DNA from: Rikenellaceae bacterium
GTDB lineage: Bacteria; Bacteroidota; Bacteroidia; Bacteroidales; Rikenellaceae
DNA length: 64,000 bases
Assembly (NCBI GenBank): GCA_015060045.1
Contig: SUZH01000008.1
Coordinates: 36,092-100,091 of the forward strand
Direction of reading: 5' to 3'
Shown here: positions 21,570 through 42,843 of the stretch, in pieces
Position numbering within the stretch: the stretch's first letter is position 1
How the letters are laid out: every line of letters begins with the position of its first letter
Notes under the pieces: generated by a model
Database searches by the model: none
What the model saw: the letters and a program-made list of their open reading frames with translations, nothing else
What the model was told of the DNA's origin: nothing
Position numbers and translations under genes: made by a program

Positions 21570-22727
21570 ATGGCAGACAAGAGAGACTACTACGAGGTGT
21601 TGGGCGTCGAGAAGAACGCCAATGCCGACGAAATAAAGAAGGCCTACCGCAAGGCGGCTATCAAGTATCACCCCGATAAGAATCCGGGTGATAAGGAGGC
21701 CGAGGAGAAGTTTAAGGAGGCTGCCGAGGCCTACGACGTGCTGTCGAACCCCGATAAGCGTGCCCGCTACGACCAGTTCGGCCATGCCGGCATGAGCGGT
21801 GCGGCCGGTGGTGCAGGTGGCTTCGGTGGTGGTTTCGGTGGCTTCTCGATGGAGGATATCTTCTCGCAGTTTGGCGATATCTTCGGGGGCCACTTCGGTG
21901 GCGGCTTCCGCTCGTCGGGTGGTGGCCGTACGGTTAACCGCGGATCGGACCTGCGCATCAAGGTGCGCCTGACGCTGCAGGAGATTGCCGAAGGCGTGAC
22001 CAAGAAACTCAAGATCAACAAGACCCTCGCCTGCGAGCAGTGCGGGGGTACGGGTGCCAAGGATAGCTCCTCGTACTCGACCTGCTCGACCTGTAACGGT
22101 TCGGGCTACGTGGTGACGATGCAGAACTCCTTCTTCGGTCGCATGCAGATGCAGTCGGTCTGCCCCACCTGCGGTGGTGAGGGTAAGGTGATCACCGCCA
22201 AGTGCGATAAGTGCGGTGGCGAAGGTACGACGCGTGGTCAGGAGGTGGTCGAGATTAAGATTCCCGCCGGTGTGGGCGAGGGTATGGTGCTCACCGTCTC
22301 GGGCAAGGGTAATGCAGCCCGCCACGGTGGTGTGAACGGCGACCTGCAGGTCCTCATCGAGGAGGAGCCGCATCCCGAGCTGCTGCGCGACGGCAATGAC
22401 CTGATCCACAACCTCAATATCACCGTAACGACTGCCCTCTTGGGTGGTACGGTGGAGGTGCCGACCGTCGATGGCCGTGCCAAGATCAAGATCGCTCCGG
22501 GTACGCATGCCGGTAAGGTGCTTCGCCTCGGCGGTAAGGGTCTGCCCGATGTGAACGGCTATGGCCGTGGCGATGAGCTGGTGGTGGTCGATATCACCAT
22601 CCCCGATCGCCTGACCAAGGAGGAGCGCAAACTCGTCGAGCAACTCGCCGAGCAACCCTCTTTCCAGAAGGCAGAGTCGGTGAAGAACCAGAATATATTT
22701 GAGCGCATGAAGAACTTCTTCCGTTGA
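21570..22727 (+). CDS. dnaJ: Chaperone DnaJ
   Basis: J-domain [10 protein letters not shown] region, CxxCxGxG zinc repeats. Confidence 0.96.
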
Positions 22728-22850
22728 TTTCGATTTTATGCGGCACCTTTTGCACTTTCTTGCCGTGCGAAGTTGGTCACATACCTTTGAGTATGCTCCC
22801 AATTCGCCCGACCTCGAAAGCCCAAAATCTGCTCGCCTAAAATCAAAATC
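22726..22850 (+). repeat. Long imperfect palindrome, element A (3' of dnaJ)
   Basis: Left arm GATTTCGATTTTATGCGGCACC...GTTGGTCACATAC pairs imperfectly with GTATGCTCCCAATTC...CTCGCCTAAAATCAAAATC over nearly 60 nt per arm; apex CATAC-CTTTGA-GTATG. Confidence 0.8.
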
Positions 22851-27776: not shown

Positions 27777-28832
<1,056 letters not shown>

Positions 28833-28840
28833 TCTTTCTA

Positions 28841-28965
28841 GCGAAGCCACATAGCGCGCCTCTTTTGGCGTTATGCTTACCCCGCAGTTGCTCACATACG
28901 TCAAGTATGCTCCGCACTGCGGGGTTTCGCATGCCTAAAAATAGGCACACTCTGCGGCTTCGTGA
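28841..28965 (+). repeat. Long imperfect palindrome, element B (3' of gapA)
   Basis: GCGAAGCC...TTTTGGCGTTATGC...CCCCGCAGTTGCTCACATAC-GTCAA-GTATGCTCCGCACTGCGGGG...GCATGCCTAAAAATAGGC...GGCTTCGTGA. Confidence 0.88.
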
Positions 28966-29089
28966 GGCCTTTATCTTAAAAGGGTGCTCTTAGCACCCCT
29001 CCGCACTGCGGGGTTTCGCATGTCTAAAAATAGGCGCACTCTGCGGCTTCGTGATGTCGTTGGGAAATAAAAGGGTGTTCTTAGCACCC
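28910..29089 (+). repeat. Partial tandem duplication of element B right arm plus trailing hairpin (offset about 89-91 bp)
   Basis: CTCCGCACTGCGGGGTTTCGCATGyCTAAAAATAGGCrCACTCTGCGGCTTCGTGA at 28910-28965 and 28999-29054, each followed by AAAAGGGTGyTCTTAGCACCC (28978-28998 and 29069-29089). Confidence 0.9.
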
Positions 29090-32335: not shown

Positions 32336-32518
32336 ATGGCACATCCTAAACACAAAGTCTCGTCGACTCGCCGAGACAAGAGAAGAACGAACTACAAGGC
32401 TGTCGTTCCGACGGTTGTAACCTGCTCGAACTGCGGTAGCGCAGTTCTCTACCACCGTGTATGCCCCGAGTGCGGCTTCTACCGTGGTAAGCTGGCGATC
32501 GAGAAGAAGGCCGAGTAA
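32336..32518 (+). CDS. rpmF: 50S ribosomal protein L32
   Basis: MAHPKHKVSSTRRDKRR, CxxC zinc pairs, 60 aa. Confidence 0.96.
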   Translation: MAHPKHKVSSTRRDKRRTNYKAVVPTVVTCSNCGSAVLYHRVCPECGFYRGKLAIEKKAE

Positions 32519-32526
32519 ATTTCTCG

Positions 32527-32648
32527 GCGAAGAAGCCTGATGGCCGATTTTGGCGTTACGCACAACTTCGTTATTGCTCACATACGGCAGTATGCTCCGC
32601 ATAACGAAGCCGTGCAAGCCTAAAAATCGTCACATCATCCTCCTTCGC
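32527..32648 (+). repeat. Long imperfect palindrome, element C (3' of rpmF)
   Basis: GCGAAGAAGCC..CGATTTTGGCGTTACGC..CTTCGTTATTGCTCACATAC-GGCA-GTATGCTCCGCATAACGAAG..GCAAGCCTAAAAATCG..CTCCTTCGC. Confidence 0.88.
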
Positions 32649-32770
32649 AACACTTTTTCGGGTAAATTTCTCGAGTATGAGGAGATAGCTCCTCACAAAA
32701 CTAAGAGCTGTCAGTGCCACGACGAGCACGGCGGCTCTTTTTTCTTTTTTTGAAACGAATACCAAACGCT

Positions 32771-42647: not shown

Positions 42648-42776
42648 GTTTTCCCATTTTATGCGGAACCTTCCGCACTTTATTTGCAAGCCCCGAATGG
42701 GACGTACGCCAAGTACTACCCATCCGGGGCTTACTGCGTAAATCGCGAAATCTTCTCGCCTAACATGAGAAAACGG
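42648..42776 (+). repeat. Long imperfect palindrome, element D (3' of greA), diverged apex
   Basis: AAGCCCCGAATGGGACGTAC-GCCAA-GTACTACCCATCCGGGGCTT core; outer arms TTTTATGCGGAACCTTCCGCACTTT / CTCGCCTAACATGAG resemble element A. Confidence 0.78.
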
Positions 42777-42843
42777 ACTTTGCTCAATCTGCTCCTCTAA
42801 AATCAAAAACGTTGTGGTGCTGATGCCCCATGGCTGTCTTTTT

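Follow-up and report, generated by a model that had tools for sequence, protein, structure and literature searches.

A covarying hairpin family behind stop codons in Alistipes, with evidence of mobility

Dispersed palindromes are known from many phyla as REP elements and BIMEs, which lie mostly downstream of genes and whose stems vary while their tag motifs stay (PMC3733652). REPs are 20-40 bp long and carry GTAG or CGTC as an unpaired tag at one end, the GTAG type being tied to Y1 RAYT transposases (PMC3733652). The intergenic YPAL or RU-2 elements, of about 168 bp, have variable-length target-site duplications and targets with dyad symmetry, are co-expressed with upstream genes, and have been reported from Yersinia and Erwinia only (PMC2759123, PMC2229807). 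The ERIC elements, also called IRU or RU-1, are 127 bp long, with TA termini and terminal inverted repeats (PMC2229807). Finally, hairpins maintained by template switching display matched double changes in their stems without visible half-steps (PMC8794818).

The element described here, element C, lies in a window of 64,000 nucleotides (the whole stretch of DNA that was analysed) from a Rikenellaceae bacterium; all features of the window given below are on the plus strand. It follows rpmF, the gene for ribosomal protein L32 (32336-32518; Pfam Ribosomal_L32p, E 6.8e-23), whose stop codon occupies 32516-32518. The initial annotation had placed a long imperfect hairpin 9 nt past this stop codon, at 32527-32648, and we found it as written, the span being exactly that of the hairpin when measured from its outermost GCGAAG/CTTCGC pair. 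Together with a tail (32649-32661), the hairpin makes up a mobile palindromic element (32527-32661) set between two exact copies of the 12-mer GTAAATTTCTCG. The left copy (32515-32526) shares bases with the rpmF stop codon, and the right one lies at 32662-32673. A repeat of this length was reached in none of 2000 shuffles, and it is also present in locus L252 and in the orthologs of genomes G034 and G041. The pair is a probable target-site duplication.

The outer left arm of the hairpin, GCGAAG...ATTTTGGC (32527-32554), is assigned by sequence and covariation to a partner at 32618-32648. There follow the invariant GTT of an internal loop (32555-32557), the inner left arm CTTCGTTAT (32566-32574), and the conserved apical core TGCTCACATAC-GGCA-GTATGCTCCGC (32575-32600), which comprises a bulged T, a TCA/CTCC internal loop and the CATAC/GTATG stem. 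The descending strand contains the inner right arm ATAACGAAG (32601-32609), which pairs with the inner left arm, the conserved right internal-loop motif GCCTAAAAAT (32618-32627), whose GCCT usually stands at +16/17 across phyla, and the outer right arm (32622-32648), with CTTCGC at its end. The string CTTCGTTAT-t-GC-TCA-CATAC-GGCA-GTATG-CTCC-GC-ATAACGAAG, as read earlier, is exact, and so are TTTTGGCGTTACGC to its left and GCCTAAAAAT to its right. A second element of the window, B, indeed has the core in common with C and carries it on a different stem, CCCCGCAGT/ACTGCGGGG. The predicted fold of the hairpin is stable.

To score such hairpins we used a covariance model of 118 positions, built from 11 copies of the element's own genome. 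The model identified three copies in the window, all in sense orientation and 2 to 13 nt 3' of a stop codon. Element C itself scored 98.6 bits (32530-32647; E 1.5e-24). Element B (28845-28961; 106.3 bits, E 1.2e-26) lies 13 nt past the stop of a 337-aa ORF ending at 28832, which we take to be gap from its GAPDH C-terminus. The third copy (22729-22849; 44.8 bits, E 8.2e-10) begins 2 nt past the stop of a 385-aa ORF ending at 22727; it is a divergent subtype, GGTCACATAC...GTATGCTCCC, with the right arm CTGCTCGCCTAAAATC. No match to the exact core pattern is expected in shuffled window sequence, and GCYTAAAAAT sites number two in the window against 0.15 expected. The right half of B, with the small hairpin after it, has been duplicated in tandem (28910-29061), the local duplicate at 28999-29061 being 92% identical over 63 nt to 28910-28972. 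Two more remnants resembling the right arm occur at 42749-42811.

We then asked how the arms change between copies. In the 11 own-genome copies, a structure of 40 pairs had 88.4% of its cells paired, compared with 68.6% after shuffling, and 25 of the pairs had changed on both sides. The covariation score was 0.518 versus 0.159 in shuffled alignments (sd 0.020), and about 0.1 when the partners were slid against each other. Since the apical CATAC/GTATG stem is invariant across these copies, it provides no covariation evidence; the inner and outer arms supply all of it. A genome-copy alignment of this kind had been named by the initial annotation as the test of its idea, and the outer arms do covary in it. 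The unpaired landmarks, on the other side, are fixed: TCA versus CTSC at the tip, the bulged T, and GTT versus GCCT(A/T), as well as, by inspection, a C-T mismatch close to the outer end. The GTT is kept in 25 of 25 rows of the alignment of orthologous loci, and it usually stands 19 nt 5' of the core, other phyla included. Among 23 deduplicated copies from outside Alistipes, pairing was 67.1% versus 50.0% shuffled and the covariation score 0.459 versus 0.189 (sd 0.016). Paired change around an invariant core, as first proposed from B and C, is thus strongly supported by own-genome copies, orthologs and non-Alistipes copies.

The own genome (G000) holds about 25 copies among the best 150 scored candidates at first look, and 71 of the 101 genomes of the same genus, which we take to be Alistipes, have matches of near-constant length (best 36 candidates per genome). 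Entries of Alistipes sp. in a collection of 85,488 species include sequences matching own-genome copies, for instance L230. In the same collection, the exact core with a loop of 3-5 nucleotides occurred in at least 118 stretches, where our own estimate predicts about one. The listed matches include Legionella, Yersinia, Vibrio, Providencia, Morganella and Nitrosomonas, along with Desulfobacterales, Myxococcales and others; matches on single contigs, such as a 604-base Streptomyces contig, look like contamination. Examples from other phyla fold into the same long hairpin and score up to 74 bits with the Alistipes-trained model, part of these scores being due to the core itself because most of the loci were picked by it. 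In Providencia and Proteus, the rRNA spacer that separates the tRNA from 23S contains the hairpin, oriented antisense to the rRNA (L237, 3076-3193, and L312, 1482-1595), and the hairpin scores 33.7-48.9 bits with this model. In E. coli, a variant-core copy between pyrH and frr (23.6 bits, E 0.0013) is antisense to the transcript; it is the one we read among the places, five per E. coli genome at the median, that a 63-nt query returned at E up to 0.1.

Within Bacteroidota, the exact core matched none of 397 other genomes sampled, in a search blind to variant cores, so that with the own genome as sole match among 398 the core is patchy. Because of this patchiness across phyla, we infer that the family may have spread horizontally. 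Only one in 2.9 million viral contigs contained the exact core, three records of a phage collection matched a Proteus copy, and element C itself had no match among plasmids. At the gathering score, Rfam returned only tRNAs in the window, and no convincing match appeared when E was relaxed to 5. The family was matched neither there nor in the open-access papers searched, where the core sequence led to unrelated papers only and a search by theme to none.

Copies are placed in a consistent way next to genes. With ORFs called mechanically, 70 of 77 Alistipes loci have their upstream gene in sense orientation (p 3.5e-14), as do 86 of 112 loci in a scan of named genomes covering Alistipes and other genera. 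Where the copy lies within a tandem gene pair, sense outnumbers antisense by 27 to 3 in Alistipes and by 42 to 15 in the named-genome scan, in which many cores stand 35-70 nt past a stop codon. The neighbouring genes on both sides fall into 198 Pfam families, mostly differing housekeeping families; the 25 commonest include none of transposases. DNA gyrase B accounts for four of 126 neighbour proteins (loci L162-L269), the joint largest family count; these are possibly orthologous Vibrio loci.

That the hairpin family is mobile is well supported. In genome G056, eight places carry one 162-nt unit, in which the hairpin is joined by a terminator-like one; the eight are 96-100% identical along the whole unit and have differing flanks. 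Near-identical copies at several loci of one genome indicate that the family moves. The rpmF-plsX site is filled in G000, G034 and G041, and element C is not found in the rpmF-plsX spacers of the close relatives G028, G096, G046 and G008, which differ in sequence. The family thus has the attributes of a bacterial MITE: short, non-coding, dispersed copies, polymorphism for presence and absence, and near-identical new copies. Flanking direct repeats measure 12 bp at rpmF and 9-13 bp at some other copies; over 202 copies their excess is slight once tandem arrays are set aside, a handful being above chance. An autonomous partner transposon was not seen in the neighbourhoods read, and matches to defence genes were scattered and single. 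We rejected an association with the Y1 tyrosine transposase (PF01797), which is present in one of the 101 genus genomes and not in the own genome.

Several further observations concern the surroundings of the copies. In the rpmF-plsX spacer (L281-L287), the element-free relatives G028 and G008 hold other long inverted repeats. Tandem arrays of two or three hairpin copies stand behind one gene at L219, L202, L267 and L020, and some G056 copies are 5'-truncated. The genus also contains a second dispersed family of structured repeats (GAGAGCA-stem-TGCCGA...AAAAGCC...TTAA type), with copies at L112, L113, L123 and L125 in G056, at L133, L142 and L151 in G037, and at L140 and L148 in G000. In G056, it sits inside the hairpin element at a fixed point, GCAAG|CCTTG; elsewhere it adjoins TTCTTAATT-like repeats, and the G037 copies are related to those of G056.

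We give roughly even credence to a reading in which element C is a mobile, non-autonomous DNA palindrome, MITE-like or REP-like, which is read as a DNA hairpin and kept by template switching and selection. The working form would be a DNA hairpin, made when a strand folds during replication or transcription, or else a cruciform. A putative trans-acting nuclease or recombinase would read the unpaired modules and insert the element next to stop codons. Once the element is in place, its arms may be held complementary by template-switch correction between them together with selection against broken pairs, and resident copies may be retained since they would be mildly useful at the 3' end of a transcription unit, or at least their loss there would be costly. 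Several findings weigh against this mobile palindrome. No mobilising enzyme was matched, with Y1 so rare in the genus and reverse transcriptase unassociated, and flanking repeats beat chance for only that handful of copies. The strong conservation of old copies is unexpected for a purely selfish element, the sense bias in tandem pairs could equally mean a role in RNA, and the comparison of orthologs draws on few loci, where copies were matched up by their best model score, a criterion biased towards well-paired ones.

The initial annotation had allowed that the copies might be decayed mobile-element ends with target-site duplications. Mobility and a probable duplication at element C agree with part of this; the copies, however, are not decayed. 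When 18 ortholog comparisons are added up, the proportion of differing sites is 0.051 in the elements and 0.271 at 4-fold sites in the gene upstream, although these pairs are not independent and one row (L026/L054) sets unrelated upstream ORFs side by side. The rate of change in inserted copies is thus about a fifth of that at synonymous sites, and they are therefore not simply decaying. At a locus that we take to be RNase Y-like from the C-terminus of its gene, the element differs at 0-1 of 118 sites versus about 0.31 at 4-fold sites; one gap ortholog pair lacks the slowdown (0.129 versus 0.138).

Constraint and sense bias together make an RNA-level element of the 3'UTR the strongest rival, even though we consider it unlikely. 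A protein or RNase would bind the hairpin in the mRNA, or the hairpin would itself block 3'-5' decay, and transcript stability would be set in this way. Copies do lie mostly in sense directly past stop codons, are conserved between species and have a stable predicted fold, and some host genes look highly expressed: rpmF, whose name alone has Pfam support, and genes we presume from their C-termini to be gap, eno-like and L34-like. Sense RNA helices accept G.U but not A.C, and the hairpins show no excess of the former. The inner stem has 13 G.U and 10 A.C in Alistipes and 28 and 18 at other loci, 76 copies have 58 G.U versus 80 A.C cells, and the 23 diverse non-Alistipes copies have 40 versus 45. 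The A.C totals are not pure noise, since one inner position has a recurrent C-A. The tRNAs of the same DNA, as found by ARAGORN, gave 30 G.U and no A.C, a control that is partly circular because ARAGORN looks for pairs.

The changes between orthologs point the same way. At orthologous loci, 51 changed pairs included 29 double Watson-Crick swaps, four one-sided G.U and four one-sided A.C, in few loci and with copies paired by top model score. This pattern fits arm-to-arm template switching or strong selection at the DNA level better than RNA evolution by way of G.U. The RNA reading is further opposed by the antisense copies in Proteus and Providencia rRNA spacers and at E. coli pyrH-frr, by the lack of an Rfam match, and by the roughly 30% of genus genomes without the element. 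The earlier proposal of selection on structure therefore stands as far as paired change and conservation between species go, but RNA, in the form of the 3'UTR hairpin, is not favoured as the selected object.

It is less probable still that the palindrome is a topological or nucleoid-protein site which, placed where transcription units end, would extrude or else bind a nucleoid protein or gyrase, its DNA role being conserved; E. coli PU-BIME elements have been reported as such sites. The DNA-level signature of the pairing and the position at gene 3' ends are in line with this, as is the spacing of the landmarks, fixed across phyla as it would be for a widely conserved recognising protein. A patchy distribution would nevertheless be odd for the site of a universal protein, and the site alone leaves the new copies in G056 unexplained.

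There is very little to commend a SINE-like retroelement, copied from RNA by a resident reverse transcriptase. The sense bias 3' of genes, the 5'-truncated G056 copies and the flanking repeats of 9-13 bp would suit it. However, RVT_1 was not found in G000, G001, G034, G041, G056 or G096, all rich in copies, and is present in some copy-free genomes; we thus rejected the association, and the reading is largely refuted for known reverse transcriptase families. Equally implausible is an ordinary intrinsic terminator: the hairpin does stand past stop codons, but AACACTTTTTCGG follows it with no T-run at its base, conserved unpaired modules such as it has are foreign to terminators, and a separate terminator-like hairpin with a T-run, read from the sequence (AAGAGCTG...CGGCTCTTTTTT, 32703-32751), lies outside element C and 5' of plsX, its AGAGCTGTC..GGCTCTTT segment being present also in the element-free G028 spacer.

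More tentatively, and as a claim we hold rather doubtful, the mobile palindrome may belong to one ancient hairpin-DNA family of Bacteroidota, Proteobacteria, desulfobacteria and probably Firmicutes, moved by a landmark-reading enzyme that is neither Y1 nor a reverse transcriptase and put directly behind stop codons. If so, one landmark-bearing DNA hairpin would have reached bacteria of unrelated groups, among them E. coli, as well as rRNA spacers, uncatalogued as one family. It would offer a route toward the mobilising enzyme and a natural in vivo test of template-switch upkeep of palindromes. It would also call for caution, as covarying hairpins 3' of genes may act in a form other than RNA; the count of G.U versus A.C is a cheap discriminator.

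How, then, does the hairpin compare with known systems? Integron attC sites have outer RYYYAAC and then GTTRRRY boxes, and we rejected this candidate, since in the hairpin the motifs are internal and their order is reversed, with GTT in the left half and GCCT in the right. E. coli BoxC was set aside as a triplex motif. The stem-loop of the tRNA-23S spacer in Proteus and Providencia matches the hairpin family, yet is antisense to the rRNA; for the E. coli rRNA spacer block known as rsl, six MG1655 spacers were read and had no recognisable core. Template switching (PMC8794818) shares the matched double changes; as a mutational process, it leaves the invariant unpaired modules and the mobility unexplained. 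ERIC is by description similar, an imperfect palindrome near 127 bp that is intergenic and MITE-like. YPAL is of the same size class and likewise intergenic, but neither its published sequence, compared by eye, nor the accompanying text contains the TCACATAC/GTATGCTSCG core. From REPs and BIMEs the hairpin differs in its length of about 120 nt, in having its unpaired motifs inside and no recognised terminal tag, and, relative to REPtrons, in the near absence of Y1 (PF01797) from the genus, one of 101 genomes, and its absence from the own genome. Like them, the Alistipes hairpin is found mainly downstream of coding regions.
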